Of a DNA stretch of 64,000 bases, positions 6,071-56,035 are shown piece after piece. The notes beneath the pieces are model-generated. The model worked only from the letters and a program-made list of their open reading frames with translations, ran no database searches and was not told where the DNA came from. How positions within the stretch are numbered: the first letter of the stretch is position 1; every line of letters begins with the position of its first letter. The stretch is from a virus, in IMG/VR virus record IMGVR_UViG_3300032677_000023, positions 1 to 64,000 of that record. One strand, written 5' to 3'. The position numbers were made by a program, and so were the translations under genes.

Positions 6071-6071
6071 A

Positions 6072-16374: not shown

Positions 16375-16448
16375 TGGTGCTTCTGCGTGGAATCAAACCA
16401 CGGTAGATCGATTATCAGTCGATTATTCTATCATTGAATTACAGAAGC
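16375..16448 (-). tRNA. tRNA-Ile (anticodon GAU)
   Basis: Acceptor GCTTCTG/CAGAAGC, D arm ATTC/GAAT, anticodon stem ATCGA/TCGAT with loop CTGATAA, T arm CGTGG/CCACG, encoded CCA. It is the last tRNA of the array. Confidence 0.85.
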
Positions 16449-16486
16449 ATTAAATGGTGCCGGATGAGAGATTCGAACCGCCTAAA

Positions 16487-16642
16487 ATCTCATTTATTAT
16501 ATTTAGACCCTAAAAACGAATATCTTATAAAGACAGATATTAATAAAATTATAAATGCATCAAACCAAAACAATATATATGTAATTGTTATTGGCAAAAA
16601 ACACATTAATTTAGAGTCAATTAAAGAAATGGTAGGGGATAG
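16487..16642 (+). pseudogene. C-terminal relic of a homing endonuclease
   Basis: The + frame encodes LLYLDPKNEYLIKTD and continues with INKII...NNIYVIVIGKKHIN. This matches the C-terminus of the intact endonuclease at 19568-20203 (YLDPKNDYLIN, then EEKINKVCDQNKIKVLILNKNQ). Only about 50 residues survive; the N-terminal zinc finger and nuclease core are missing. The relic is on the strand opposite to the surrounding tRNAs and its end runs antisense into tRNA-Val. It is dead as a nuclease. Confidence 0.7.
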
Positions 16643-16703
16643 AGGTAACGCTCCTCTTCTTCCTGCTTGTAAAACAGGCACTCTACTTTTAAGTTAATCC
16701 CCC
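16630..16703 (-). tRNA. tRNA-Val (anticodon UAC) with aberrant T loop
   Basis: Acceptor GGGGGAT/ATCCCCT, D arm ACTT/GAGT, anticodon stem CCTGT/GCAGG with loop TTTACAA, perfect T stem AGAGG/CCTCT and encoded CCA. The T loop reads AGCGTTA instead of the near-universal TTCRANY, which removes T54, T55 and C56. Either functional with a non-standard elbow or decaying. Confidence 0.6.
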
Positions 16704-16747
16704 AAAATTATTTTAGGTTGCTCTACCTCTGTGCTAATCCGGCGTAT

Positions 16748-16824
16748 TGGCGCGACGGAAGGGAGTCGAACCCTCATTGCCCTGATTGAAAGTCAGGTTT
16801 CCTAGGCCGTTAGAAGACCGTCGC
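16748..16824 (-). tRNA. tRNA-Glu (anticodon UUC)
   Basis: Acceptor GCGACGG/CCGTCGC, anticodon stem CCTGA/TCAGG with loop CTTTCAA, T arm GAGGG/CCCTT, discriminator G, encoded CCA. Confidence 0.9.
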
Positions 16825-16828
16825 ATAA

Positions 16829-16918
16829 TGGCGGAAAGGGTGAGATTCGAACTCACGGAACCCTTTCAGGTTCGCTAGTTTTCAAGACTAGAGCCATCAA
16901 CCACTCGGCCACCTTTCC
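16829..16918 (-). tRNA. tRNA-Ser (anticodon UGA)
   Basis: Type II tRNA with long variable arm; acceptor GGAAAGG/CCTTTCC, anticodon stem CTAGT/ACTAG with loop CTTGAAA, discriminator G, CCA encoded. Confidence 0.9.
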
Positions 16919-16932
16919 ATTATTCTTTATAT

Positions 16933-16961
16933 AGTATATTCTAAGACTTGTTTAAAGTCAA
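16933..16961 (-). promoter_or_regulatory. sigma70-type promoter inside the tRNA array
   Basis: On the - strand TTGACT (16956-16961), 17-base spacer, TATACT (16933-16938), in the only sizeable gap between tRNA-Trp and tRNA-Ser. It should drive the last part of the array independently of the main promoter. Confidence 0.75.
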
Positions 16962-16970
16962 GCATTATTT

Positions 16971-17046
16971 TGGCACCCCGTCAAGGACTCGAACCCTGCT
17001 CTTCGGTTTTGGAGACCGAAACATCGCCCCTAAATGCTTACGAGGT
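16971..17046 (-). tRNA. tRNA-Trp (anticodon CCA)
   Basis: Acceptor ACCTCGT/ACGGGGT, anticodon stem TCGGT/ACCGA with loop CTCCAAA, discriminator G, encoded CCA. Confidence 0.85.
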
Positions 17047-17063
17047 ATTGTTTCTATTTATAA

Positions 17064-17153
17064 TGGCGGAGAGTGAGAGATTCGAACTCTCGGTAGAGTT
17101 TCCCCTACGTCTCGTTAGCAGTGAGGTGCCTTAGACCGCTCGGCCAACTCTCC
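17064..17153 (-). tRNA. tRNA-Ser (anticodon GCU)
   Basis: Type II tRNA; acceptor GGAGAGT/ACTCTCC, loop CTGCTAA, long variable arm, T arm GAGAG/CTCTC, CCA encoded. The anticodon stem has mismatches at its two ends (CCTCA against CGAGA). Confidence 0.8.
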
Positions 17154-17158
17154 ATTAA

Positions 17159-17234
17159 TGGAGCTTCCCCACGGAATCAAACCGTATCCTCACGTTCTTC
17201 AGACGCACGTGCACATCAGTTACACCAGAGAAGC
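17159..17234 (-). tRNA. tRNA-Phe (anticodon GAA)
   Basis: Acceptor GCTTCTC/GGGAAGC, D stem GTGT/GCAC, anticodon stem TGCGT/ACGTG with loop CTGAAGA, encoded CCA. The discriminator is U rather than the usual A of tRNA-Phe. Confidence 0.8.
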
Positions 17235-17242
17235 ATTAAATT

Positions 17243-17318
17243 TGGATCGGGGAGCAGGGGTCGAACCTGCAGTCTTACGGAGTCAAAGGCCGAGATGTTA
17301 CCATTACACCATCCCCGA
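17243..17318 (-). tRNA. tRNA-Gln (anticodon UUG)
   Basis: Acceptor TCGGGGA/TCCCCGA, Gln-like D arm, loop CTTTGAC, T arm GCAGG/CCTGC, encoded CCA. The anticodon stem is weak: 27-43 and 31-39 are mismatched. Confidence 0.75.
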
Positions 17319-17331
17319 ACAATTCTTAATT

Positions 17332-17409
17332 TGGTGCCGAGTGGTGGGCGTCGAACCCACTTTAATCAGGATATGAATCTGATGCGATAGCCAATACCGC
17401 CCCATCGGC
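17332..17409 (-). tRNA. tRNA-Met/Ile2 (anticodon CAU) with bulged acceptor
   Basis: D arm GCGG/TCGC, loop TTCATAT, T arm GTGGG/CCCAC, encoded CCA. The 3' acceptor strand has eight bases, so a C must bulge for GCCGATG to pair. CAU could mean initiator Met, elongator Met or Ile2 after lysidine modification; the sequence does not decide. Confidence 0.65.
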
Positions 17410-17424
17410 ATTATTTGTATTTAG

Positions 17425-17500
17425 TGGTACCCGCTCTTGGATTCGAACCAAGTCTACCTGATCCACAATCAAGTGTGCTGACCAACAACACTAAGCGAGC
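17425..17500 (-). tRNA. tRNA-His (anticodon GUG)
   Basis: Acceptor GCTCGCT/AGCGGGT, anticodon stem CTTGA/TCAGG with loop TTGTGGA, T arm CTTGG/CCAAG, encoded CCA. The usual G-1:C73 His identity pair is not present (A73). Confidence 0.8.
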
Positions 17501-17505
17501 ATAAT

Positions 17506-17582
17506 TGGTGCCCATGGTAGGACTCGAACCTACAAAACTCGGAGTTTGAAGCCGATACGTATACCAATTCCGTCACAAGGGC
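17506..17582 (-). tRNA. tRNA-Leu (anticodon CAA) with short variable loop
   Basis: Acceptor GCCCTTG/CATGGGC, Leu-like D arm containing GGAATTGGTA, anticodon stem TCGGC/TCCGA with loop TTCAAAC, T arm GTAGG/CCTAC, encoded CCA. The variable region is only about five bases, whereas tRNA-Leu is normally type II with a long arm. Confidence 0.7.
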
Positions 17583-17583
17583 T

Positions 17584-17659
17584 TGGCGCTGTTTGAGAGG
17601 ATCGAACTCCCGACATCCTGATTACTAAACAGGTGCTCTACCAACTGAGCTAAAACAGC
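17584..17659 (-). tRNA. tRNA-Thr (anticodon AGU)
   Basis: Acceptor GCTGTTT/AAACAGC, D arm GCTC/GAGC, anticodon stem CCTGT/TCAGG with loop TTAGTAA, T arm GGGAG/CTCTC, discriminator G, encoded CCA. A at position 34 is unusual in bacteria and their phages outside tRNA-Arg(ACG). Confidence 0.8.
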
Positions 17660-17666
17660 ATTATAA

Positions 17667-17747
17667 TGGTGCGCCTGGCAAGACTTGAACTTGCACCCGA
17701 AGACCAGTTTCTAAGACTGGCGTGTCTACCTATTCCACCACAAGCGC
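17667..17747 (-). tRNA. tRNA-Leu (anticodon UAG)
   Basis: Acceptor GCGCTTG/CAGGCGC, anticodon stem CCAGT/ACTGG with loop CTTAGAA, a short variable hairpin with TTCG, encoded CCA. Its first 18 bases also encode the end of the HNH gene at 17730-18242. Confidence 0.85.
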
Positions 17748-18242
17748 AGATTTTCTTTTTCTCCATGTCATTGTAAATGAATGGCAATTTGGGCAAAGAC
17801 CTTCTAAATTATTTCTATCGTTATTATTCGTATTGCCATCTTTATGTTCTAATTCAAGTTTTATGGGTTGACCTAACCACTCAAATATTCCACAGTTATT
17901 ACATTTAAAGTTTTGTTCTTCAAAAACTCTTCTTCTTTTTTGACCAGAACTAAGATCTTCAAACATTTTTGACAAATACAAATTTTCTCTTTTCTTTTTT
18001 ACTTTTTCTGATATACGGTTTCTAGTTTCTTCATTTATTGCGGAAAGGCGTTTTTCAATATGTTCTTGACTTTGTTTCTTTCCTTTATTGGATGGAGATC
18101 TTCCAATTAATTTTTCACTAACTTTTAAATTAATTTCTTTTCTTTTTGAGAAAGTAGAAAAAGCCGAAGCACATTTTTTACAACAAAATCTTCCAGAACC
18201 ATATTCACCTGAATGAGTTTCTTTACAATATTCACATAACAT
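17730..18242 (-). CDS. HNH homing endonuclease ending inside tRNA-Leu
   Basis: 170 residues: N-terminal CEYCKET and CCKKCASAF zinc fingers, a basic helical linker (residues 40-115), then the HNH nuclease module FKCNNCG, LELEHKDGNTNNNDRNNLEGLCPNCHS. The final codons SALVVE and the TAG stop lie within the acceptor and D arm of tRNA-Leu(UAG). The - strand late element TATAAATA at 18276-18283 precedes it. The C-terminal tail comes from the tRNA sequence and is unlikely to matter for catalysis. Confidence 0.8.
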   Translation of the reverse strand: MLCEYCKETHSGEYGSGRFCCKKCASAFSTFSKRKEINLKVSEKLIGRSPSNKGKKQSQEHIEKRLSAINEETRNRISEKVKKKRENLYLSKMFEDLSSGQKRRRVFEEQNFKCNNCGIFEWLGQPIKLELEHKDGNTNNNDRNNLEGLCPNCHSFTMTWRKRKSALVVE

Positions 18243-18275
18243 TTTTGAACCTCCAAAGTAACTTTTATATAAAGT

Positions 18276-18283
18276 TATTTATA
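18276..18283 (-). promoter_or_regulatory. T4-type late promoter (TATAAATA)
   Basis: Exact octamer 34 bases upstream of the HNH gene start at 18242, within the tRNA array. Confidence 0.55.
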
Positions 18284-18299
18284 AAAGTTCGTTTTTCAG

Positions 18300-18374
18300 T
18301 GGAGCGTCGAGCGGGAATCGAACCCGCATCTCTTGGTTGGAAGCCAAGAATAATAACCACTATACTACCGACGC
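18300..18374 (-). tRNA. tRNA-Gly (anticodon UCC)
   Basis: Acceptor GCGTCGG/TCGACGC, anticodon stem CTTGG/CCAAG with loop CTTCCAA, T arm GCGGG/CCCGC, discriminator U, encoded CCA. Confidence 0.88.
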
Positions 18375-18375
18375 G

Positions 18376-18446
18376 AGCGGGGAACGAGAATCGAACTCGT
18401 ACGATTACCTTGGCAAGGTAACAGGCTACCACTACATCACCCCCGC
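18376..18446 (-). tRNA. tRNA-Gly (anticodon GCC), no encoded CCA
   Basis: Acceptor GCGGGGG/TCCCCGC, anticodon stem TTACC/GGTAA with loop TTGCCAA, discriminator U. A single base separates its end from the next tRNA, so CCA is not encoded and must be added by the host CCA enzyme. Confidence 0.85.
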
Positions 18447-18447
18447 A

Positions 18448-18518
18448 TACTGCTGCTCCGATTCGAACGGCGTTATTCTCTTGTCGAAATAGTGTTTCCC
18501 ATCAACACCGACAGCAAT
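18448..18518 (-). pseudogene. degenerate tRNA-like element
   Basis: ATTGCTG pairs fully with CAGCAGT as an acceptor. A D-arm-like stem and a TTCGAAT T loop with a 4-of-5 T stem are present. The anticodon arm does not fold into a 5-bp stem and 7-base loop with U33, and CCA is missing. Likely a decayed tRNA gene. Confidence 0.5.
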
Positions 18519-18523
18519 TTAAA

Positions 18524-18600
18524 TGGAGGTCAGTGAAGGACTCAAACCCTCAACCTTCGCGTTCGTAGCGCGATGCTCTATTCAGTTGAGCTAACTGACC
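18524..18600 (-). tRNA. tRNA-Arg (anticodon ACG)
   Basis: Acceptor GGTCAGT/ACTGACC, anticodon stem TCGCG/CGCGA with loop CTACGAA, encoded CCA, discriminator U. The first 23 bases overlap the 3' end of the HNH gene at 18578. Confidence 0.88.
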
Positions 18601-18901
18601 TTTTTCTTTTATTTTTTATTTTTTTCGTAGCTTTCCAAAGCTGTACCCCACTTTTTTCAAGTTTATGAATTTCATTATGACAATTTCTACAGACAGGAAC
18701 TAAATCTATACCTATATGTTCATTTCCAAGACGTTTATATGTTCTATGATGTAAATCTAATGGGACGTTAGACGCTTGGCAACAATAACAATTCCATTTT
18801 CCTTCGCCTTTTATTTGTTTATATAAATTTGAAGAGTAGAAATCTTTTCTCTTTTTTTGCCATTCTTTTGAATTGATATAATCATAATATTTCATATACA
18901 A
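18578..18901 (-). CDS. small HNH homing endonuclease ending inside tRNA-Arg
   Basis: 107 residues with CYCCQASNVPLDLHHRTYKRLG and LVPVCRNCHNEIHKLE, a compact HNH domain with two zinc-binding CxxC-type pairs. The N-terminus SKEWQKKRKDFY is typical of phage HNH proteins. The C-terminus KRSVSSTE and the TAG stop are encoded by tRNA-Arg(ACG). No late promoter is clear upstream, and the ATG follows closely after tRNA-Cys. Confidence 0.8.
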   Translation of the reverse strand: MYMKYYDYINSKEWQKKRKDFYSSNLYKQIKGEGKWNCYCCQASNVPLDLHHRTYKRLGNEHIGIDLVPVCRNCHNEIHKLEKSGVQLWKATKKIKNKRKRSVSSTE

Positions 18902-18910
18902 GACTTTCTA

Positions 18911-18985
18911 TGGAGGTGCCTCCCAGAATCGAACTGGGTTCTCAAGGTTTTGCAGACCTGTGCATTGCCATCCTACTCAGGCACC
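18911..18985 (-). tRNA. tRNA-Cys (anticodon GCA)
   Basis: Acceptor GGTGCCT/AGGCACC, anticodon stem CAGGT/ACCTT with loop CTGCAAA, discriminator U, encoded CCA. Its acceptor supplies the TGA stop of the small gene at 18977-19183. Confidence 0.88.
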
Positions 18986-19183
18986 AATATATTCTATTCT
19001 TGGATCACTAGGAGTTGGTTGACCATACCATATGGTTGTATCCATTTCCATAATACGATAGATGCGATATTCTGGATAATTTTGTTCAAATAAATTGAAG
19101 ACATCATTAACAATTTCGACATTACGAACAACACGAGTATGTTGTTTCATATCATAATTATATTGAACGATTACGTCAGTCAT
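18977..19183 (-). CDS. small hypothetical protein between tRNAs
   Basis: 68 residues, starting MTDVIVQYNYDMKQH with AAAGGATTTTGAT upstream; beta-rich start then VNDVFNLFEQNYPEYRIYRIM. The frame is open further upstream through two tRNA genes, but only the ATG at 19183 has a ribosome-binding site. The TGA stop is inside tRNA-Cys. It has no zinc finger or nuclease motif. It resembles small T4-like proteins of unknown role. Confidence 0.6.
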   Translation of the reverse strand: MTDVIVQYNYDMKQHTRVVRNVEIVNDVFNLFEQNYPEYRIYRIMEMDTTIWYGQPTPSDPRIEYIGA

Positions 19184-19199
19184 ATCAAAATCCTTTAAT

Positions 19200-19275
19200 T
19201 GGCTGGGGATCAAGGACTCGAACCTCGGACATCCAGATTCAGAGTCTGGCGTTCTACCAACTGAACTAATCCCCA
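19200..19275 (-). tRNA. tRNA-Gln (anticodon CUG)
   Basis: Acceptor TGGGGAT/ATCCCCA, anticodon stem CCAGA/TCTGG with loop CTCTGAA, discriminator G, encoded CCA. Confidence 0.88.
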
Positions 19276-19281
19276 ATATAA

Positions 19282-19355
19282 TGGCGATCCTAAAGGGACT
19301 CGAACCCTCCTTTACCCGTAGACAGCGGGTAGCCTTCCCTGACGGCAATAGGACC
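19282..19355 (-). tRNA. tRNA-Asp (anticodon GUC)
   Basis: Acceptor GGTCCTA/TAGGATC, anticodon stem ACCCG/CGGGT with loop CTGTCTA, T arm GAGGG/CCCTT, discriminator G, encoded CCA. Confidence 0.88.
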
Positions 19356-19362
19356 ATTAATT

Positions 19363-19435
19363 TGGTTGCGGTCGCTGGTGACGCTCCAGTTCTCTAGCTT
19401 ATGAGGCTAGCATGGCACTTTTCCACTACCCCGCA
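19363..19435 (-). tRNA. tRNA-Met (anticodon CAU) with aberrant T loop
   Basis: Acceptor TGCGGGG pairs at five of seven positions with GACCGCA; anticodon stem CTAGC/GCTAG with loop CTCATAA; T stem CTGG/CCAG closes a loop AGCGTCA instead of TTCRANY; CCA encoded. The T loop matches that of tRNA-Val at 16630 (AGCGTYA). Function is uncertain. Confidence 0.6.
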
Positions 19436-19442
19436 ATAAAAT

Positions 19443-19481
19443 TTATCTAGCAAACAACAAAATCCATTGTACTCGCATCAT
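19443..19481 (-). other. possible 12-codon mini-ORF between tRNAs
   Basis: ATGATG preceded by AAAAGGAAAC opens a frame of 12 codons ending TAA just before tRNA-Met. The ribosome-binding site is good but the product is too short to judge; it may be a leader peptide or a gene relic. Confidence 0.2.
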
Positions 19482-19500
19482 TTTTTGTTTCCTTTTAATA

Positions 19501-19577
19501 TGGTGCTGAAGAAAGGACTCGAACCCTCAACCTTCGCATTACAAGTGCGCTGCTCTACCAATTAAAGCTACTTCAGC
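19501..19577 (-). tRNA. tRNA-Thr (anticodon UGU)
   Basis: Acceptor GCTGAAG/CTTCAGC, D arm GCTT/GAGC, anticodon stem GCGCA/TGCGA with loop CTTGTAA, encoded CCA. U8-A9-G10 serves as the stop codon of the endonuclease gene at 19568. Confidence 0.88.
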
Positions 19578-20203
19578 AATTTAATTATTTCATTCCAACA
19601 TAGTTGGTTCTTATTCAAGATTAACACTTTAATCTTATTTTGATCACAAACTTTATTTATTTTTTCTTCATCAGAAAATCCTAAACTGGGATTATTGTTA
19701 TTGATCAAATAATCGTTTTTTGGGTCCAAATATATATTATAATCAATCAAATACATATCTGGAGTATATGTTCTATGCTTACCATTTCTATCAACATAAT
19801 TAAATTTTTTACAAGTATCCCATCTTATATTATTCTCGTCTAATGATTGTGCAACAATCAATTCATATGTTGAACCAAGAATTTTATCTTTATATCTTAT
19901 TCTTCTAGATTGTGAAACGCCACCCAATCCTCTTTCTTTAGCAAGCTTACTCATCTTTATTTTTACAGATTCTGTTTGACCTCTTTTTCGATTTGTATCA
20001 GCTATTCTTTCTAAAGCTTCTTTGGATATTTTAGGTTTTTGTAAACCTAATTCTTTAGCCTTTTTATATTGATTAGAATGTTTTCTGATGCTAAAATCAT
20101 AAATTCTAATTTTACGATCGGGATTTAATTTACACATTCTTTGATGATTTCTCAAAGAATTATTATTTTTACATTCTTTATTACAAAAAGTACAAAGTAG
20201 CAT
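19568..20203 (-). CDS. homing endonuclease with N-terminal zinc finger, degenerate PD-(D/E)XK
   Basis: 211 residues. The N-terminal zinc finger CTFCNKECKNNNSLRNHQRMC closely parallels the enzyme at 592-1278. A basic helical linker follows. The C-terminal domain has GSTYELIVAQSLDENNIRWD and TPDMYLIDYNIYLDPKNDYL, where the usual ExK is DPK, so either a variant active site or an inactive one. The stop codon TAG is the U8-A9-G10 of tRNA-Thr(UGU). A late promoter at 20231-20238 precedes it. Confidence 0.75.
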   Translation of the reverse strand: MLLCTFCNKECKNNNSLRNHQRMCKLNPDRKIRIYDFSIRKHSNQYKKAKELGLQKPKISKEALERIADTNRKRGQTESVKIKMSKLAKERGLGGVSQSRRIRYKDKILGSTYELIVAQSLDENNIRWDTCKKFNYVDRNGKHRTYTPDMYLIDYNIYLDPKNDYLINNNNPSLGFSDEEKINKVCDQNKIKVLILNKNQLCWNEIIKLLK

Positions 20204-20230
20204 TTTTATCTTTAATATTACGTTGATTTA

Positions 20231-20238
20231 TATTTATA
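20231..20238 (-). promoter_or_regulatory. T4-type late promoter (TATAAATA)
   Basis: Exact octamer 28 bases upstream of the endonuclease gene; it overlaps the 3' arm of the structured RNA at 20235-20330. Confidence 0.55.
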
Positions 20239-20330
20239 ATTATCGTATCAGTTCTCCAGCCCTTTGGGAGCGCGACTTCCCTATTCACCTTCACAGAATT
20301 TTCGCACGTCTGCTAGACACGATAATTATA
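20235..20330 (-). ncRNA. candidate stable RNA in tRNA array (96 nt)
   Basis: A perfect 12-bp stem (TATAATTATCGT with ACGATAATTATA) closes the element. Inside are GTCT-AGC-AGAC, a GGGA/TCCC stem and a CTCC/GGAG stem. There is no coding frame of note. T4 also encodes two stable RNAs of unknown function within its tRNA cluster, so an analogous RNA is proposed. Confidence 0.5.
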
Positions 20331-20446
20331 ATTCGCTGTGGTTTTAGAACATTAGGACCACCATCCTAGACTCGGAACTTTTCAGCCCGGAATTACCGAC
20401 TAACCGTGGGTCGGCGCGTGTCTATTAAGCGACAAACCTTAATTAT
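20331..20446 (-). ncRNA. candidate structured RNA in tRNA array
   Basis: Several short stems are visible: TCGCT/AGCGA closing, CCGAC/GTCGG, and TAGGA/TCCTA around TGGTGG. It contains the blocks ATTAAGGTT near the 5' side and GGATGGTGG near the 3' side, both also found in the RNA upstream of the Ro-like gene. Boundaries are approximate. Confidence 0.4.
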
Positions 20447-20515
20447 CATATGGTAGAGATTCTAGATTTCTCCTTTACCAAGCTACGAGCTTCCTAGCAA
20501 CTGAGCGACCATATG
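20447..20515 (-). ncRNA. tRNA-like hairpin element
   Basis: CATATGGT and ACCATATG form an 8-bp closing stem. A D-arm-like stretch GCTCAGTTGCTAGGAAGC follows the 5' arm, and a GAGA/TCTC stem stands where a T arm would be. No usable anticodon arm or CCA is present, so it is a tRNA-derived RNA or a decayed tRNA. Confidence 0.4.
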
Positions 20516-20518
20516 AAT

Positions 20519-20650
20519 TTAAATTCCCAAAGACTCGTTTATATATGAAATAGCCTCTTCAATACAAGTTATGGTTTTTTCATCTTCTATATGTTTATTC
20601 TTAAGCATTATTAAAACAAACAAAACTTTTTTAAGCTTCTCATAATCCAT
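20519..20650 (-). CDS. 43-residue small protein
   Basis: An ATG with AAAGGATATATT upstream opens a frame of 43 codons, with a product starting MDYEKLKKVLFVLIMLKNK and ending INESLGI. It is amphipathic and helical and lies between tRNA-Ala and the tRNA-like element. Good initiation signals make it a plausible gene; function unknown. Confidence 0.55.
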   Translation of the reverse strand: MDYEKLKKVLFVLIMLKNKHIEDEKTITCIEEAISYINESLGI

Positions 20651-20674
20651 AATATATCCTTTATGTTTTTAGAT

Positions 20675-20748
20675 TGGTGGAGACGGAGAGAATCGAACTC
20701 TCAAGTACGCCGTGCAAAAGCGTCAGTTTACCGTTAGCTTACGCCCCC
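20675..20748 (-). tRNA. tRNA-Ala (anticodon UGC)
   Basis: Acceptor GGGGGCG/CGTCTCC, anticodon stem ACGCT/GGCGT with loop TTTGCAC, T arm GAGAG/CTCTC, encoded CCA. Confidence 0.85.
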
Positions 20749-20753
20749 ATTAT

Positions 20754-20832
20754 TGGCTCCTGTCGTAGGGATCGAACCTACCTAATCAGTGGTTAACAGC
20801 CACGTCCATGCACCAAGCTCGGATTGACAGGA
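20754..20832 (-). tRNA. tRNA-Asn (anticodon GUU)
   Basis: Acceptor TCCTGTC/GACAGGA, anticodon stem CGTGG/CCACT with loop CTGTTAA, T arm GTAGG/CCTAC, discriminator G, encoded CCA. Confidence 0.85.
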
Positions 20833-20844
20833 ATAAAACTTTAT

Positions 20845-21429
20845 TTATACGTTAGCGAGAACCTTTTGCGTCTTGAAGCAAAACCAACAAGTAGAAGGTG
20901 TTACTCCGACTTTCTCGTTAACGAGATGGTCTCTAACAGCCTTCATAATTCCTTGATAAGGATCTGCGAAATCGTGTCCAGCCAACAAACCACCAACTTT
21001 AACTTTTGGAAACCAAGCCAAAAGGTCTTTACGAAAAGATTCATAATCGTGAGAAGCGTCAATAAAGACAAAATCCAAAGACTCATCTTCGTAAAGACTA
21101 GCCGATTCTGTGCTATCTCCCTTAATTGCTTCGTAATGACCAACAACAGGCCTCATATTATCCTTAAAAACACCCAACAAACGACCCGCCTTATTGTCCG
21201 GATCAAACATCTGACCAGGTTCGATAACAGATCCGGTAAAATTATCGATACAATCTAACTTAATATCTTTACCGCTATTGATAATTTCTACAGCCAAAAA
21301 AGCAGAGCTCTGACCTTTCCAAGTACCTATTTCAACGAAATGAGCCTTGTCGGGCGCAGTATCAACTGCATACTTAAACATATCCGGATAATTAAACCAA
21401 CCTTCAACGTTCTGATAAAAATGTTCCAT
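20845..21429 (-). CDS. class I SAM-dependent methyltransferase (Methyltransf_24-like)
   Basis: 194 residues with FVEIGTWKGQSSAFLA (SAM motif I), LDCIDNFTGS, LDFVFIDASHDYESFRKDL and VGGLLAGHDFADPY. This set is typical of Methyltransf_24/cephalosporin hydroxylase-like enzymes that often act on sugars or small molecules. The target is unknown; its partner upstream is a 2OG oxygenase, so the pair may modify a glycan, base or protein. GGAGTTATAT precedes the ATG. Confidence 0.75.
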   Translation of the reverse strand: MEHFYQNVEGWFNYPDMFKYAVDTAPDKAHFVEIGTWKGQSSAFLAVEIINSGKDIKLDCIDNFTGSVIEPGQMFDPDNKAGRLLGVFKDNMRPVVGHYEAIKGDSTESASLYEDESLDFVFIDASHDYESFRKDLLAWFPKVKVGGLLAGHDFADPYQGIMKAVRDHLVNEKVGVTPSTCWFCFKTQKVLANV

Positions 21430-21441
21430 ATATAACTCCTA

Positions 21442-22113
21442 TTAATCCGTATCCATAACGATATCGCCCGATACCGCAATTCTATAATCATCTGAAGTGT
21501 AGAAAGGGTTAACTGAATGACCTAATCCTTTGGGGAACAGACAAATTATACCTTCATAAGGATGATCGACCGGAATAGGATGACTTCTAACTTGACCAAG
21601 AATATCTGTGTAATAAAAGACAAACATTGAAGCACACTTAAGAGTGGCCTTTGGAAAAACCGCTATTTCATCTTGAATATTATAAGGTATCTTCGTCCAG
21701 ATAACGAAAGAATAAACACCACCATGAATATGATGAGGATGAAATTCGTGCTTCTTTTGGAAGTTAGCCCAAACGTCTTTAAACTTAAACCGTCTTGGAT
21801 GCGAAGCAACGTTAACTACTTCGTTGATAAAATGCGGTTGCGATCTATGATTGTGTAAATCTATCAAGCTATTAATATAATCCAACAAAACTGGAGAAAG
21901 TTCTTTTGTAAAGTCATATTCTCTTGAAATGTTTGCAGTAAGTTTATAACCAGCTTCTACAGAACCTTCAAACTCTTTCTCAACAGCGCCGTCGGTTACT
22001 TCACGAACCTTAGACATTATATCTTCAGGAACTCTATGAAATACAACACCGTTATTAGGGAAAGTATAGAATAAGGCTTGATCGCCTTGTAAATTAGAAA
22101 TTTGATCTGCCAT
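21442..22113 (-). CDS. 2-oxoglutarate/Fe(II) oxygenase (TIGR02466-like)
   Basis: 223 residues from the ATG at 22113 (AAAGGTGAAC upstream). The iron ligands are likely H128 or H130 in HPHHIHGG and H199 in GLGHSVNP, with R211 in the YRIAVSGD segment binding 2-oxoglutarate. Proteins of this type are common in T4-like marine phages; their substrates are unknown. The late octamer at 22150-22157 precedes it. Confidence 0.78.
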   Translation of the reverse strand: MADQISNLQGDQALFYTFPNNGVVFHRVPEDIMSKVREVTDGAVEKEFEGSVEAGYKLTANISREYDFTKELSPVLLDYINSLIDLHNHRSQPHFINEVVNVASHPRRFKFKDVWANFQKKHEFHPHHIHGGVYSFVIWTKIPYNIQDEIAVFPKATLKCASMFVFYYTDILGQVRSHPIPVDHPYEGIICLFPKGLGHSVNPFYTSDDYRIAVSGDIVMDTD

Positions 22114-22149
22114 AATTTGTTCACCTTTAAGTATATTGATCAATATTAT

Positions 22150-22157
22150 TATTTATA
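22150..22157 (-). promoter_or_regulatory. T4-type late promoter (TATAAATA)
   Basis: Exact octamer 37 bases upstream of the oxygenase ATG; it should also transcribe the methyltransferase gene. Confidence 0.6.
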
Positions 22158-22161
22158 CGAT

Positions 22162-22240
22162 TGGTAGACCATATCAGATTCGAACTGATGTATGACAGAG
22201 ATTAAGAGTCTCCCGCTAAAACCAACTCAGCTAATGGTCC
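22162..22240 (-). tRNA. tRNA-Lys (anticodon CUU)
   Basis: Acceptor GGACCAT/ATGGTCT, anticodon stem GGAGA/TCTCT with loop CTCTTAA, T arm ATCAG/CTGAT, encoded CCA. Confidence 0.82.
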
Positions 22241-22246
22241 ATAAAC

Positions 22247-22330
22247 TGGTGCCGAGAGTAGGATTCGAACCTACCGTGTTATAAACGTCCGATTTACAGT
22301 CGGGTGCCCGGCCACTTAGGCGGTCTCGGC
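22247..22330 (-). tRNA. tRNA-Tyr (anticodon GUA)
   Basis: Type II tRNA with variable arm; acceptor GCCGAGA/TCTCGGC, loop CTGTAAA, T arm GTAGG/CCTAC, encoded CCA. Confidence 0.88.
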
Positions 22331-22335
22331 ATTAA

Positions 22336-22412
22336 TGGTCGGGGATGCAGGATTCGAACCTGCGACCTCTCGGTCCCAAACCGAGCGCACTATCAAGCTG
22401 TGCTAATCCCCG
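22336..22412 (-). tRNA. tRNA-Pro (anticodon UGG)
   Basis: Acceptor CGGGGAT/ATCCCCG, anticodon stem CTCGG/CCGAG with loop TTTGGGA, T arm GCAGG/CCTGC, encoded CCA. Confidence 0.9.
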
Positions 22413-22433
22413 TAAATTTTCTTACGTAGTAAT

Positions 22434-22509
22434 TGGAGGACCCACTCGGATTCGAACCGAGAACCTAGAGATTAAAAGTCACTTGCACCACCAATTGTGC
22501 TATGGGTCC
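22434..22509 (-). tRNA. tRNA-Lys (anticodon UUU)
   Basis: Acceptor GGACCCA/TGGGTCC, anticodon stem AGTGA/TCTCT with one T-T mismatch and loop CTTTTAA, T arm CTCGG/CCGAG, encoded CCA. First tRNA of the operon. Confidence 0.85.
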
Positions 22510-49932: not shown

Positions 49933-52269
49933 TTAGTAATTACCAACAATTTGCGAGAATTGAACTCCAGTAGCCACAGCCACAAAGTTCAACTGAATGA
50001 AGTTGATTGCTCTTGCTGGTTTAATATAAATGTCGCCAACAAACTGATTAGCATCAACGATTGCAGGAGTATTATTAGTTGAGTCACAAACAACGAGATA
50101 ATCAGTGATACCGCGCTGTCCTTGAACCGTTCTTAGATAAGGGTTAACAAGGTTTCTGAACTGAGCTTGTGTAAACGCATCGTTAAACTCGAATAGAGAA
50201 TACTTTGCAGCTATAGAAATAGCTCTTTCAAGAACAATAAACAATCTACGAACGTTAATACGATCAAACGCCGAAGGTTTAGTCTGATAAGTCTTATCGC
50301 CATAAAGAATAGTACCAGTTCCCTTAAGCGTAATAACCGGGTTAACGTTATTAGAATAAAGAACATCTCTACTTGCATGACCTGGATTATACGCAAGCTT
50401 AATTACGTTCTTGATTTGGCCTCTATTAAGACCAGCTGGTGACCACCAAGGAGCGTTGGTTTGATCTGTTCTGGCACATAGACCAGCAATATCCCCGTTT
50501 AATGGAATCCAACGATTGATGTCATTATACTTATCGTATTGATACTTATAACCGGAATCAATAACGGCATATGACGTTGAATGTAGATTATTTGCAACCC
50601 AATTAACGATAGATGTAGCTTCTTGATTGTAATTATTAAGCATCAAAGATTTATCTGGGCTGATGAAAGCAACACAATCCATTCTTTGAGTTGTAATGTT
50701 ATCAATAATATAATTTGCAAGCTGATAAGTTTGACCAGCCGCTCCCGCAGGATATCCTTGCATGATTAGATCGACTTGAATATTTTCTTTGTTCGCGAAA
50801 TAATTATAAGCTGTGCCAAGAATAGAAAGTGGAGCAGTAGTTTCTGAATAACCGTCAGCGCCTAGAGTTAATATATAGTCACCAGGGTTTAGATTAGTTG
50901 ATGAAGAAATATTCATAGCAGTTGCTGAAGCAGCTCCTGATCTATCGTTAGCCCACCAAATATACTTAGAATTTTTATTAATAACGTTTACATAATAATT
51001 AGTTGAACCATCTAAGTTAAGAGCGTCTGAAGCTCTGGAAACGTTCTTATATGTTTCTAGAATTGTACCAGGAGTTCCAGTGAACATTCCGTTATCATCA
51101 ACGACTACAACCGAAAGCTGATCTTGAGCGGCTGTATTTCCGTTGTTTTGAACCCACTGAGACTGTCCTGGTCCTGTACCAACAGCGTTATAAAATTCCC
51201 AATATCTCTGTACAGAAGTATTTGATGTATAAGCTGTGTGAAGTCTTAATGGAGCCTGAAAATTGAAAGTTATAGAAGAAGCGCTGCTATTAGTTACAAC
51301 ATTAGAAATATTAGTTATGTAAAGATATTGAAAACCAATAGAATTATTACCAACAACTATATTATCACCTACAGTGAAATCGTTATAAACTGCTGAAGCT
51401 GCAACATTTGTTTCTGTTACGAAACCTCCAGATCCTGGGGTCAATACTAGAGAAGCTGTGTTACTTCCGATACTTGTTGTAAATAGACCAGTATAAGAAT
51501 GACCCGTTGATGAATTTGCATAAGCAGAAGTTGTATTTGCGTAACCAGAAATAGCTATATTTGAAGAAAACGCTGTGGCCGAATCACAAACTGCAACTCT
51601 TAATGAGTTACCAATATTTCCTGGATATTTCGCAACATAAAGCACGTTTGAATCAAAATTATTTATTGAATTGGCGTAATAATGATCAGAATTTACGACA
51701 ATCTGATTAACAAGGTTGGCAACAACTGCTGAGTTAGAAGCCAAAGCAACTGCTGTATAAGCTGTACCTGGGTTTGCGAAATAAAGATTCAAAGGAGTGT
51801 TAGAAGTTGTTACGACCGAAGGAATACTAATAGCTGTAGAGTTAACAACTGTTATAGTAGTTGCCAAAGAACCGCTAACAATAGAACTATTGCTTGACTG
51901 AGCTACGTACATTCCATTTGTAAGCTGACTTGTATTACCAATGAAAGTGCTACTATTAGAACTAGAAACTGAATTAGAATAAAAAGAAAGAGCTGGTGTT
52001 GCGCCTGCAGTGTTTGCAGCGCGAGAAACGTAAAGCGAATTTCCGTAAGCTAAGAAGTTAGCAGCTGTGAAAAAAGTTTCCGCGTTAAGATTTGAAGGTT
52101 CGCCGAAATTCGAAACAAGATTTGGTTCTGAATCAACTAAAACTGCCTGGCCGACTGGACCCCAAGCAAAAACGCCGCCGATGGCGCCTGTTGAAGTGGA
52201 TACGGCAGGAACAATTGTAGTAAGATCAATTTCGGTAACATTTACACCTGGGCTAAGTTGAACTGGCAT
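49933..52269 (-). CDS. 18: tail sheath protein gp18
   Basis: 778 residues: SPGVNVTEIDLTTIVPAVSTSTGAIGGVFAWGP at the start, FISPDKSLMLNNYNQEATSIVNW, and C-terminal FDRINVRRLFIVLERAISIAAKYSLFEFND, TDYLVVCD and IKPARAINFIQLNFVAV match gp18. It is about 120 residues longer than T4 gp18 (659); the extra part is a Ser/Asn/Val-rich surface insert at roughly residues 100-400. Confidence 0.95.
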   Translation of the reverse strand: MPVQLSPGVNVTEIDLTTIVPAVSTSTGAIGGVFAWGPVGQAVLVDSEPNLVSNFGEPSNLNAETFFTAANFLAYGNSLYVSRAANTAGATPALSFYSNSVSSSNSSTFIGNTSQLTNGMYVAQSSNSSIVSGSLATTITVVNSTAISIPSVVTTSNTPLNLYFANPGTAYTAVALASNSAVVANLVNQIVVNSDHYYANSINNFDSNVLYVAKYPGNIGNSLRVAVCDSATAFSSNIAISGYANTTSAYANSSTGHSYTGLFTTSIGSNTASLVLTPGSGGFVTETNVAASAVYNDFTVGDNIVVGNNSIGFQYLYITNISNVVTNSSASSITFNFQAPLRLHTAYTSNTSVQRYWEFYNAVGTGPGQSQWVQNNGNTAAQDQLSVVVVDDNGMFTGTPGTILETYKNVSRASDALNLDGSTNYYVNVINKNSKYIWWANDRSGAASATAMNISSSTNLNPGDYILTLGADGYSETTAPLSILGTAYNYFANKENIQVDLIMQGYPAGAAGQTYQLANYIIDNITTQRMDCVAFISPDKSLMLNNYNQEATSIVNWVANNLHSTSYAVIDSGYKYQYDKYNDINRWIPLNGDIAGLCARTDQTNAPWWSPAGLNRGQIKNVIKLAYNPGHASRDVLYSNNVNPVITLKGTGTILYGDKTYQTKPSAFDRINVRRLFIVLERAISIAAKYSLFEFNDAFTQAQFRNLVNPYLRTVQGQRGITDYLVVCDSTNNTPAIVDANQFVGDIYIKPARAINFIQLNFVAVATGVQFSQIVGNY

Positions 52270-52318: not shown

Positions 52319-53482
52319 TTAAAAATCTTGATTTACGTTCCACATCCAACTATCGGGCACAAACTTTTCAATCGTTTCGTCGTATTCATCCCTACCATCA
52401 AAAACAAAACCAAATGGTGACATATCTTGTTCTAAATCTTCTTCCGTCTTTTCTCTTAAAGACATCAGAGTATTTATGTTAGTATAATCTTTGAAATATT
52501 GTTGTTCTGACAACCAAGAAAACAAAACCAAACACATTACCAAATCATCGTGACATCCTGGTTCTGCTTCGTAACTTGTACCTTTTTTAGAAAACGTGGC
52601 TAATTCAGCGATTGTATGAAAATCGTTAATTATAAGTTGATTTTGTTCAACAAGAAGTTTTAAAATAGAACAACCTATAGATTTAACAATTTTGGTAGTC
52701 CTAATACCCTTGTCAACGCCTTTTCCGCCAAATCCGGAGGTGATTCTTTTACCCGATCTACCAGCGTTTTCTGTGAATAGAACATTATCATAACTGAAAT
52801 CGTAATGTAGCGTGTGAGAAACTTGTTCTCCAATATCATTAACTTCAACAAGAACAGAAGCGTTGTTATATGCTTTAGCTACTCTATGAATAACTTCAGC
52901 GTAATCTACTGGAGTTACGGCATTATTTCTATATAAAGCTGCTTGTTGATAAGGCATCTTTGTAACATCAATTAATTGGAAAGCCGAATAATCTAATCCT
53001 TTACCTCTAGAAACGTCGCAAATCATCAGATACATATGATCTTTTTCTGGCGCGAAATATTGAATAAGACCTTCTTTTTCAACTATAGGGGCTCTTGGTA
53101 CTAATTCTTTTAATTTCCAACCGGCAATAAGAGTTCCGGAAGAGCCAAGAAATTCACAATTGTGACTAATAAATTCGTTTGAAATATATGCATTGTTTTT
53201 TGAAACGTTAACTGGATCGTAAACAATTTGCGGTTGTAATTTTTTTATAGAAATTATTGGTTCGCCGCAAACTTTGTCATTAATTTTTAAATTAGAAACA
53301 AATTCAAAATTATTTTCAGAAATCATAATTTTATGATCTGATGAACATCCCAATAATTTTCCGGAAGCCAAAGTTAATTCTAATATATTTTCTTTAAAAA
53401 CTGATCTGATACCATCAAAATCGGACCAACCGTCTTTAGTTAAAATTTCGAATTTACTATTTGGTCGAAAAGATGTTTCCAT
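52319..53482 (-). CDS. 17: terminase large subunit, C half, preceded by C-terminal split-intein piece
   Basis: Residues 1-108 are an intein C piece: FEILTKDGWSDFDGI, LTLASGKLLGCSSDHKIMI (block B with His), VYDPVNVSKNNAYISNEFISHN ending in the HN splice motif. Residue 109 is the +1 Cys (CEFLGSSGTLIAGWK) of the C-extein, 279 residues with the RNase H-like nuclease domain (ICDVSRGKGLDYSAFQLI, VEVNDIG, CHDDLVMCLVLF). The piece must join the protein from 54080-54967 by protein trans-splicing to give gp17. The 5' end overlaps the endonuclease gene upstream. Confidence 0.9.
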   Translation of the reverse strand: METSFRPNSKFEILTKDGWSDFDGIRSVFKENILELTLASGKLLGCSSDHKIMISENNFEFVSNLKINDKVCGEPIISIKKLQPQIVYDPVNVSKNNAYISNEFISHNCEFLGSSGTLIAGWKLKELVPRAPIVEKEGLIQYFAPEKDHMYLMICDVSRGKGLDYSAFQLIDVTKMPYQQAALYRNNAVTPVDYAEVIHRVAKAYNNASVLVEVNDIGEQVSHTLHYDFSYDNVLFTENAGRSGKRITSGFGGKGVDKGIRTTKIVKSIGCSILKLLVEQNQLIINDFHTIAELATFSKKGTSYEAEPGCHDDLVMCLVLFSWLSEQQYFKDYTNINTLMSLREKTEEDLEQDMSPFGFVFDGRDEYDETIEKFVPDSWMWNVNQDF

Positions 53483-54036
53483 ACTATTGTTTTTCCTGAT
53501 ATTATTTTTAAAATATTTGTATTAGTCATACCAAACAATTTGGCGTTTTCATTTGCAAATTTTCTCTCATGTGAAAGATATTTTCCATTTTTTTGTTTTA
53601 ATTGTGATTCTACCGGTGTATTAATAAATTTTTCTAATAATAATTTAATATTTTTTTCTTCGAATTTTTTAGAATGAACTTTTCCTTTTCTTTTTTCCGA
53701 CCATATTTTTTTCTGTTTTTCTGAATGAATTTTTTTACCTTTATTCCAAGGAATATATCCTTTTTTATTTCCACCAATGCCCGGTCTTTTTTTACCCTTT
53801 TGTATATCAGAAATGTATTCTGGAGACAATTTCATTCTTTTTGCAATACAAACACAAGCTCCCCAATCGCCTTGTGAATAATGTATATCATAATGTTCTT
53901 CAATAGTTAGTAATGATAAATTTGAAATTTCATTATTTTTATGGTTTCCGTCTTTATGGTGTATTTCATAAGAACGACCGTTTTTGTCTTTTGGTATAGG
54001 ACCGTAATGATTTTTCCATATTTTTCTATAATTCAT
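53440..54036 (-). CDS. HNH homing endonuclease inserted in the fractured gp17 gene
   Basis: 198 residues: WKNHYGPIPKDKNGRSYEIHHKDGNHKNNEISNLSLLTIEEHYDIHY is an HNH motif; repeats of GKKRPGIGG, GKKIHSEKQKKIWSEKRKGKVHSKK and the late NAKLFGMTNTNILKIISGKT are NUMOD/IENR-type DNA-binding modules. It has its own late promoter (54060-54067) and lies exactly between the two intein pieces, so the split site was probably made by or for this gene. Its 3' end overlaps the intein C piece by 43 bases. Confidence 0.85.
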   Translation of the reverse strand: MNYRKIWKNHYGPIPKDKNGRSYEIHHKDGNHKNNEISNLSLLTIEEHYDIHYSQGDWGACVCIAKRMKLSPEYISDIQKGKKRPGIGGNKKGYIPWNKGKKIHSEKQKKIWSEKRKGKVHSKKFEEKNIKLLLEKFINTPVESQLKQKNGKYLSHERKFANENAKLFGMTNTNILKIISGKTIVWKHLFDQIVNSKF

Positions 54037-54059
54037 AAATAAAATCTCTTAATTTTATA

Positions 54060-54067
54060 TATTTATA
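54060..54067 (-). promoter_or_regulatory. T4-type late promoter (TATAAATA) between the gp17 halves
   Basis: Exact octamer 24 bases upstream of the inserted HNH gene; it would also transcribe the gp17 C half. Confidence 0.65.
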
Positions 54068-54079
54068 AAACCAAAAAAC

Positions 54080-54967
54080 TCACAACCAAAATAAACATTC
54101 TTCTATCGTCATTTTAGATTCTATCTTAGTAATTTTATCTCTAACAGTTATTATAGTGTTTCCAGTAACACATTCGTTTTCCTGAGCAAATTTTTCAAGG
54201 TCAAAATTAAGACCCTCAAGCATTTTTTGTTTCCACTCTTCGTCTCTTCCAGGTACTTCTCTCCAATCAACTTTAATTGGAGTGTAACCATTCTTGCCTT
54301 CCAAGGCAAGAGCCCAAGTTTTATAAAAATGATTCAAACCGTTCGGCGTTGAAACTAGAACTACTTTAGAGCTTTTTCTAGAAGAAATTGTCGGAAACAC
54401 TGACGTAAAAAACTCTTGCCAATTATCAATGTGTGCTGCTTCGTCGATGAATAGAAGATCAATAGAATAACCACGGATAGCATCAGCGGAAGTTGCAGAA
54501 GCTATAACTCTTGAGTTATTTTCTAGTTCCATAGAACCTTCGTTCCATTTTTCAACGCCTTGTTGCAACCATTTAGGAAGGTGTTGATAGCCGAAGTGCA
54601 CTTTACCGAGAATTTCTCTGGCAGTATCACCTTTGTTAGCTAGTAAGGCGACCGTTTTTTCTGAATTGAAAATAATAAACCAAAGAATAAAACCGCAAGT
54701 CGTCGTTGATTTACCTGCCTGTCTTGCGGTTGTTACAATATTGAAACGGTTTTCAGCAAAAGATCGTATCATCTTTTTTTGATAAGGATATAATTTGAAA
54801 CCAACCAAACCATCGTCGCTTATGATTTTCATATAAGTTTCGATGAAATATATCGGATCTTTTTCACATTTCATATATTCTTTAATAAGCTCAGGCGTCC
54901 ATTCAATATTTTGACCTGCACGCTTCAGCAGCATATTTCCGTTATATGTGCGTATTGGTTTACTCAT
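54080..54967 (-). CDS. 17: terminase large subunit, N half, with short N-terminal split-intein piece
   Basis: Residues 1-265 are the gp17 ATPase: YPYQKKMIRSFAENRFNIVTTARQAGKSTT (Walker A), SIDLLFIDEAAHIDNW (Walker B) and VLVSTPNGLNHFYKTW (coupling motif), ending FAQENE. Residues 266-295 (CVTGNTIITVRDK...EECLFWL) begin with the catalytic Cys and block A of an intein and then stop. An N piece of only about 30 residues is the hallmark of atypically split inteins; AceL-TerL in terminase is the best-known example. Start overlaps the GIY-YIG gene stop (ATGA). Confidence 0.9.
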   Translation of the reverse strand: MSKPIRTYNGNMLLKRAGQNIEWTPELIKEYMKCEKDPIYFIETYMKIISDDGLVGFKLYPYQKKMIRSFAENRFNIVTTARQAGKSTTTCGFILWFIIFNSEKTVALLANKGDTAREILGKVHFGYQHLPKWLQQGVEKWNEGSMELENNSRVIASATSADAIRGYSIDLLFIDEAAHIDNWQEFFTSVFPTISSRKSSKVVLVSTPNGLNHFYKTWALALEGKNGYTPIKVDWREVPGRDEEWKQKMLEGLNFDLEKFAQENECVTGNTIITVRDKITKIESKMTIEECLFWL

Positions 54968-55620
54968 AATTTTTCGACCTTCTTTTTATACGGTCCTCTT
55001 TTTTTACCTAATCTAGCCAATCCGCTATTTTTTCCAATTAGTTTTTTTGTTTCTTCGGAACGTTTAATTCCATAAGATGGACTATCTTTACCTTTTTTTG
55101 CAACTAAAATGCCTTCTTCAAAAAGCTTTTTCATTTTTATTTTCATCAATTCGCTATGTTCCGGTCTTTTTTTACCGGTATTGATTAATTTTGCTGCTTT
55201 AGAAGCATTTAAAGCAAATTCTCTTTTATGTTTACCTATATTTGATTCGCTTATTTTATTTTTTGTTTCTTCGGTTTTTGGTTTTGATTTATGTGTTTGA
55301 GAAGCTATTTTTCTTTGATAGTTGGATTGTATCAACCCAGAACAACCTTCGCCTCCATCTGTCAAATTTCTCAATATTCCAGTTTCGTTATTTTTTCTTC
55401 CGAACAATTTAATATATTTCATTTCTAAATTTAAAGCATCTTTTTCTTTCAAACTAGTTTGATAAAATATTATTTTAGATTTATCATCAGGAACTTTAAC
55501 ATTTTTATTTTTAGAAGAAAAAGCTCTTTTATCTTTACCTTTACCAATATAGTAAGGAGTGTTATCTAATTCTCTTAGGTAAGCATAAACATAAAATATA
55601 TTTAAATCATTGATCTTCAT
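54964..55620 (-). CDS. GIY-YIG homing endonuclease between gp16 and gp17
   Basis: 218 residues: IFYVYAYLRELDNTPYYIGKGKDKRAF is the GIY-YIG core, then EMKYIKLFGRKNNETGILRNLTDGGEGCSG (with the conserved Glu of the domain further on), and a Lys-rich NUMOD3-type tail (TGKKRPEHSELMKIKMKKLFEEG, SYGIKRSEETKKLIGKNSG). It is the intact counterpart of the broken gene at 4115-4722. Inserted between gp16 and gp17 without breaking either; overlaps both. Confidence 0.88.
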   Translation of the reverse strand: MKINDLNIFYVYAYLRELDNTPYYIGKGKDKRAFSSKNKNVKVPDDKSKIIFYQTSLKEKDALNLEMKYIKLFGRKNNETGILRNLTDGGEGCSGLIQSNYQRKIASQTHKSKPKTEETKNKISESNIGKHKREFALNASKAAKLINTGKKRPEHSELMKIKMKKLFEEGILVAKKGKDSPSYGIKRSEETKKLIGKNSGLARLGKKRGPYKKKVEKL

Positions 55621-56035
55621 TATCTTTTCTCATTCCGAGTATCATTTTTTGTAAATCTGCAGTTGATCCAACAAAAAGATTATTATTAATAGTTTTTGCT
55701 TGATCGTTTAAAGGTTCGTCAGAGTGTTTAATTTCTCTTATTTTAGTTTGTAATTCAAGTAAATTTTTATTTGCTTGAACGCTCGTATCAATCAATTTTG
55801 CCAATACTTCAAAAGCTCTTGGATGTTGCGAGCTTGCTGCAATTTCTGAAAGTTTATCTATGGCATCTTGAGCGGTTTCTACCATTGTTATGATATTAGC
55901 TCTGGCCAATTCAAAATCGTTTTGAGCACTATCATTGTGTGCATCAGATATAATTGATCTGACTGCACTATCAGTTGACAATGGCGTTACCCCCAAAGCT
56001 TTGCCAATAGGGTCATTATTTGCGTTTTCTGTCAT
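55607..56035 (-). CDS. 16: terminase small subunit gp16
   Basis: 142 residues: DPIGKALGVTPL, DFELARANIITMVETAQDAIDKLSEIAASSQHPRAFEVLAKLIDTSVQANKNLLELQTKI, matching gp16, a helical ring protein that regulates gp17. Overlaps gp15 at its start. Confidence 0.93.
   Translation of the reverse strand: MTENANNDPIGKALGVTPLSTDSAVRSIISDAHNDSAQNDFELARANIITMVETAQDAIDKLSEIAASSQHPRAFEVLAKLIDTSVQANKNLLELQTKIREIKHSDEPLNDQAKTINNNLFVGSTADLQKMILGMRKDNEDQ

Follow-up and report, generated by a model that had tools for sequence, protein, structure and literature searches.

Genes fractured by split inteins, of the kind found here in the large terminase gene (terL, product gp17) of a T4-like phage, were reportedly described by Dassa et al. 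in 2009 as halves carrying split-intein pieces, with a freestanding endonuclease gene between them; those inteins are said to be canonically split and their nucleases VSR-like, whereas the split in the phage gene is atypical and the nuclease gene in its break is of the HNH type. The phage gene lies in a window of 64,000 nucleotides (nt), the whole stretch of DNA analysed, from record IMGVR_UViG_3300032677_000023, a 69-kb metagenomic fragment; coordinates given without a contig name are positions in this window. To our knowledge, the origin and spread of split-intein fractured genes, and the loss of their nucleases, have so far been inferred from scattered metagenomic fragments. The terminase inteins AceL-TerL, GOS-TerL and Cat (PMC13014065; PDB 6dsl) share with the window a TerL host, a C-extein of the CEFLG type, an N-terminal intein piece (IntN) of 25-35 amino acids (aa), a split after the first helix (site S2) and the Hint fold. 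These inteins have been known as engineered forms or from fragments of metagenomes, whereas the window belongs to a 69-kb phage record and has an HNH gene in the break as well as natural empty and nuclease-less alleles.

Pseudomonas phage MIJ3 (PMC6892783) resembles the window in having a split intein with an HNH gene between the gene halves, in a complete phage genome, but its host gene is PolB, and an allelic series and homology of nuclease tails are not among the features reported in the available part of that paper. The cultured Vibrio phages VP-1, K469 and 1.244.A (GenBank) have a split intein at the same terL residue and a related nuclease tail, but in these phages a GIY-YIG domain is fused in frame behind IntN and forms no separate gene. 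Escherichia phages HY03 and phiS (GenBank) also contain a fractured terL with a split intein and a nuclease in the break; unlike in the window, the insertion follows the Walker B Asp-Glu, and the HY03 nuclease is TnsA-like (PF08722). The partnership in trans of a nuclease and a split intein would follow a logic similar to that of collaborative homing, which has been described for introns (PMC10448857).

The minus strand of the window contains, in order, terS, a GIY-YIG/NUMOD3 gene, the terL N gene, the HNH gene, the terL C gene and the tail sheath gene (Table 1). Direct reading bore out the anatomy proposed in an earlier note on this DNA, which had been made from the sequence alone: gp17 is encoded by two genes, with an HNH gene (198 aa; PF13392, 7e-12) between them. 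The N gene reads ...FAQENE/CVTGNTIITVRDKITKIESKMTIEECLFWL at its 3' end, its 30 non-terminase residues opening with Cys (CVTGNTIITV and 20 further residues) and being followed by TGA, whereas the C gene opens with 108 non-terminase residues ending in ...YISNEFISHN, after which CEFLGSSGTLIAG... of the terminase begins with Cys+1 (CEFLG). Without the two intein pieces, TerL comprises 265 + 279 = 544 residues, in agreement with the length that had been given for spliced gp17, and the N- and C-exteins are 99 and 100% identical, respectively, to the intact TerL of contig L013. No NCBIfam model scored above its cut-off for either terL half. The alignment to phrog_5989, a terminase N-half family of 347 positions, runs into the IntN piece, and this family may have been built from fractured N halves that carry the intein. 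Three features had escaped the earlier note, namely a 43-nt overlap between the HNH and C genes, the chimeric make-up of the HNH enzyme and the allelic series.

The identification of the two pieces as an atypically split intein, also made in that note, was supported by sequence, predicted fold and catalytic residues, and the comparison with known inteins that it had called for detected intein blocks. In a search of the PDB, the C-terminal piece (IntC) matched the C-part of the atypically split consensus intein Cat (6dsl_B, CatC; 1e-9), and its match to the Pfam intein model PF14890 (2.4e-5) was below the cut-off of that model. The AlphaFold2 model of IntC (12 related sequences as input) had a pLDDT (predicted local distance difference test) of 91, and a fold search of the PDB with this model gave Cat (6dsl) as the best match (template modelling score, TM, 0.85; E 3e-7); the matches next in rank were also inteins, VidaL among them. 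The features of class 1 (Hint) inteins are present, i.e. C1 of IntN at 54172 and a Hint fold in the IntC model, and the block-B His (SSDH), the C-terminal His-Asn and Cys+1 (SHN/C) are invariant or nearly so in the alignments. A comparison of 14 same-site split inteins showed C1 and these residues to be conserved even where IntC identity falls to ~28%. IntN has its own stop and IntC its own ATG, as in the atypically split class. For naturally atypical split sites, an IntN of 15-37 aa is described, and in AceL-TerL and GOS-TerL the split follows the first helix (PMC13014065); by its sequence the 30-aa IntN fits this AceL-type class with an S2 split site. Kinship with TerL inteins is indicated both by the CatC match and by the insertion site, which is that of a relative (L112) matching both CatN and CatC, although the window IntC is only ~29% identical to the Cat-like IntC of that relative.

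Scans of IMG/VR yielded near-identical contigs, which represent three natural alleles of the locus. Allele A (split intein and HNH gene) is found in the window and in contigs L009 and L010, the former of which starts inside the HNH gene. Allele B (L011 and L012; 99-100% DNA identity around the locus) contains the same split intein, with IntN and IntC 100% intact, but the HNH gene has been deleted, 557 bp being missing between 11-bp imperfect repeats. Because the IntN stop is retained and the start of IntC lies 40 nt beyond it, in a different frame, terL is still fractured in this allele. The remnant ahead of IntC corresponds to the HNH 3' end, indicating that allele B derives from allele A. 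The reverse derivation was rejected, as the final codons of the HNH tail are still present in allele B and are conserved where homologous tails occur in other phages. Allele C (empty site and intact terL) was found in a single contig (L013, a part of the full contig L093), in which GAA/TGT forms an uninterrupted junction precisely at the predicted splice point; identity to the window is complete over the first 353 bp upstream and the first 239 bp downstream. In an exact-match scan, one contig contained the empty junction and three contained that of IntN. The insertion point could thus be mapped, as the earlier note had suggested, in a 99% identical relative with intact gp17. The precise in-frame excision restores the host protein and fixes the boundaries of the element to the base; it also counts against an RNA intron. 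Chance can be excluded because the same fracture occurs in the independent contig L010, the same intein halves occur in L011 and L012, and the empty allele is joined at the splice point. By mismatch density, empty and occupied alleles do not differ over the 592 bp surrounding the site, which is suggestive of co-conversion but not decisive.

From its sequence, the HNH enzyme is best described as a chimera, in which an I-TevIII-like head is joined to the DNA-binding tail of the GIY-YIG enzymes of terL breaks. Residues 1-78 share 63% identity with I-TevIII of phage Bp7, the endonuclease of the T4-like nrdB intron; I-TevIII, which is housed in an RNA intron, has no terL-break tail, whereas the window enzyme has the HNH core with this tail in place of the C-terminal DNA-binding region of I-TevIII. 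Relatives of I-TevIII in 81 phage records showed 60-80% identity, confined in every record listed to the head part, and those at other loci are without the tail. Residues 75-197 are 44% identical to the GIY-YIG enzyme that occupies the break of terL in contig L099, and the two tails are 46% identical. A hidden Markov model (HMM) built from GIY-headed tails only recovered the HNH tail with an E-value of 3.6e-15, the second-best match in the window being at 0.48, and a score of 54.9 bits, compared with a maximum of 12.0 among 2000 shuffles. All clear tail matches in 21 whole virus records lie within the terL break, and IntC is located directly downstream in 42 of 42 contigs gathered by tail sequence alone in three single-tail scans, in which close relatives are over-represented because the queries were tails from terL breaks. 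In a tail search of 50,697 phage records, the weak matches were topped by the terL break of Vibrio phages (E 2-8, not significant alone). Every significant tail match found lies in this terL break, which argues for homing to terL. In the tail tree, the window groups with L099 (GIY-YIG) and not with L105 (HNH); an approximately unbiased test disfavoured a single HNH clade (p 0.021), a result that is only suggestive because the test was picked after the tree had been seen. The identical 43-nt overlap of nuclease and IntC genes in the window, L023, L025 and L099 would be expected if the tail was inherited in place and the head changed.

Table 1. Features of the fractured terL locus and flanking genes (positions in the window)
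Feature	Position	Strand	Description	Evidence
terS	55607-56035	-
GIY-YIG/NUMOD3 gene	54964-55620	-
terL N gene	54967->54080	-	295 aa = 265 aa terminase + 30 aa IntN
TerL (gp17) N-extein	54173..54967	-	265 aa, ATPase domain	PF03237 2e-22; phrog_5989 2e-65
IntN	54083..54172	-	30 aa, CVTGNTIITVRDKITKIESKMTIEECLFWL; stop TGA at 54080-54082	direct reading; missing from empty allele L013
Left 11-bp imperfect repeat	54060..54070	-	TTTTATAAATA	used in HNH deletion of allele B
T4-type late-promoter-like box	54060-54067	-	TATAAATA; 23 nt before HNH ATG	motif match
HNH nuclease gene	53440..54036 (54036->53440)	-	198 aa	PF13392 7e-12; phrog_12324 6e-30
C-terminal DNA-binding tail (predicted)	53443..53691	-	residues 116-198 of HNH enzyme	common to GIY-YIG enzymes in the same break of relatives
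Right 11-bp imperfect repeat	53503..53513	-	TTTTAAAAATA	557 bp from left copy, equal to deletion in L011/L012
Overlap of nuclease 3' end and IntC gene start	53440..53482	-	43 nt	same overlap with GIY-YIG genes in L023, L025, L099
terL C gene	53482->52319	-	387 aa = 108 aa IntC + 279 aa terminase
IntC	53159..53482	-	108 aa, own ATG; block B CSSDH, block G ISHN	CatC match; AlphaFold2 model
TerL C-extein	52319..53158	-	279 aa + stop, nuclease domain, first residue Cys+1 (CEFLG)	PF17289 1e-6
Tail sheath gene	49933-52269	-

With a probability of roughly 85%, we regard the element as a mobile split intein with an HNH homing enzyme in the terL gene of this phage, gp17 being produced by protein trans-splicing. 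The two terL genes would be translated separately, IntN and IntC would associate and fold as one Hint domain, and trans-splicing would join E265 to C266 to give a normal 544-aa gp17. As the homing enzyme of the unit, the HNH protein would recognize intein-less terL through its tail and cut there with its I-TevIII-like head, and repair from the donor would copy IntN, the HNH gene and IntC into the empty allele. That the nuclease drives insertion into empty alleles is suggested by the observed presence/absence polymorphism and the site-specific tail. The HNH head may have taken the place of a GIY-YIG head on a tail that was by then committed to the terL site, and the nuclease would later have been lost by repeat-mediated deletion, giving allele B, in which terL could remain fractured because trans-splicing alone would suffice. 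Several points weigh against this reading. Trans-splicing activity, the cleavage site and homing are carried over from established intein and homing biology, and the source is a metagenomic fragment, not an isolate. A direct PDB search with IntN alone gave no match, its likeness to CatN being undetectable by itself because 30 residues hold little signal, and the structure model of the HNH enzyme had a pLDDT of 69, with no significant match in a fold search of the PDB. The 592-bp identical flank also fits a generally low divergence (0.2-2% nearby).

We also lean, with less assurance, towards a long-lived homing unit, in which a tail locked to one terL site and overlapping the IntC start would have had its heads (GIY-YIG and HNH) swapped, the nuclease would act in trans for the split intein, and the unit would cycle between empty, split with nuclease, and split without nuclease within one phage population. 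If so, the whole cycle by which a fractured gene homes would be on view at this locus, which would also provide a natural example of heads being swapped in situ. A single phage population contains the empty, the occupied and the nuclease-deleted state with 99-100% identical flanks, and the substrate and product of homing are therefore defined down to the single base. Near-identical phages with an unbroken or nuclease-deleted gene thus allow the spread of such elements to be tested directly, and the comparison of nucleases predicts that enzymes with different cutting heads share one tail and a single target.

It is improbable, if still worth weighing, that the HNH gene does not home to this terL site, being either a passenger or a freestanding endonuclease in decay, and that the split intein is inherited vertically. 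Such a history would accommodate the persistence of allele B without a nuclease, the nuclease-free split intein of L102/L117 and the small number of contigs known for this species, but not readily the intact HNH frame with its conserved catalytic core, the restriction to this break of a tail carried by HNH and GIY-YIG enzymes alike, or the presence or absence of the intein at 99% flank identity. Very unlikely is a gene in pieces without splicing, as in a ribonucleotide reductase split by a homing endonuclease gene (HEG; cited in PMC10448857), in which the TerL halves would form a two-subunit enzyme and the intein remnants would be inert. Each half does hold a complete domain (ATPase and nuclease, respectively) and HEG-made genes in pieces are known; inert remnants would, however, decay, whereas the catalytic residues and Hint fold are retained across the 14 same-site loci down to ~28% IntC identity, the relative L112 has an intein nearly identical to engineered Cat, and the halves of L109 share one open frame.

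An RNA intron (group I or II) interrupting terL, the arrangement reported for terL of ICP1 (PMC10448857), has a negligible probability here. RNA introns do exist in terL of other phages, but the two intein halves are conserved and each is translated as protein, IntN ending at its own stop and IntC beginning at its own ATG. No Rfam intron was found at the gathering threshold over the window or at E<=5 over the break. Direct reading showed that the intron and the downstream exon would both open with TGTG, so that the boundary can slide by up to four bases; no register at GAA/TGT gives the exon-final U together with the intron-final G that group I introns need, and an RNA intron is refuted on sequence. 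The refuting condition named in the earlier note, an RNA intron at the same junction, was therefore not borne out. Hardly any weight can be given, either, to a misassembly or to a defective genome whose terL is broken: the record is metagenomic, but the same junctions recur in the independent contigs L009 and L010 (allele A) and L011 and L012 (allele B), and the same kind of architecture occurs in cultured phages.

A scan with aligned IntC sequences, supplemented with cultured phage records, identified split inteins at this terL position in dozens of other phages, mostly with a GIY-YIG gene in the break (L023, L025, L099, L100, L101, L103, L108, L110 and L112); the insertion in L023 and L025 is one codon away from the site in the window. 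An HNH gene is present in the window and L105, a putative DUF559-type nuclease gene in L113 and an unclassified gene in L116, whereas L102/L117, L011 and L012 contain no gene in the break. Fused forms excepted, the IntN pieces of these relatives are 29-35 aa in length, and C1 is conserved in all; in L109, IntN and IntC lie within one open frame. Both halves of L112 match engineered Cat (CatN, 1.6e-5; CatC, 1.9e-55), and engineered Cat/AceL-type inteins therefore belong among these fractured terminases, which provides a natural setting for inteins used in protein chemistry. For the Cat-like TerL intein, a GIY-YIG gene is found in the break in dozens of contigs. The arrangement is thus of a known kind, present in public genomes though mostly unlabelled. 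The earlier note was right about the atypical split, but N pieces of the length that it considered rare (25-30 residues) are not so, since an IntN of 29-35 aa is common at this terL site; similarly, the whole arrangement is seen here in its genomic setting, as it had stated, but is not unique (VP-1, K469 and 1.244.A at the same site; HY03 and phiS at another).

Other terL genes contain further inteins. In Vibrio phage VP-1 (L007, 1843-4059), terL has two, one unsplit at Walker A and one split at the CEFLG-type site, and in L111 (1768-4008) the terL N gene carries a large unsplit intein, with motifs that look like those of the LAGLIDADG type, in addition to a split-intein N piece at the CEFLG-type site. 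A different terL fracture, at Walker A (QVGK/C...HN/TTT), was observed in L120 (38-3201) and L121 (958-4028), with a DUF559-type (PD-(D/E)XK-like) gene in the break.

The late promoter that had been assigned to the HNH gene was recovered as a T4-type box 23 nt from the ATG, and the promoter role itself is plausible from the consensus match. This motif is frequent in the window (16 found versus 9.4 expected), but 5 of the 13 minus-strand copies sit 22-37 nt ahead of an open reading frame (ORF) start, which makes a late promoter plausible. Allele B retains the box, there just upstream of IntC.

The GIY-YIG/NUMOD3 gene is squeezed in between terS and terL and overlaps each of them by a short stretch. 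The empty-allele contig (L093, 6495-8550), in which terS adjoins terL, lacks this gene, and its presence or absence is a second HEG polymorphism, one kilobase off. The aligned part of terS in L093 is ~30% different, and the N-terminus of TerL also differs (MKAVKTYNG against MSKPIRTYNG). This contig has a GIY-YIG-like ORF of its own upstream of terS (5897-6502), and HEGs seem to change place around terminase genes. Elsewhere in the window, about two dozen tRNA genes are clustered on the minus strand (16375-22509).
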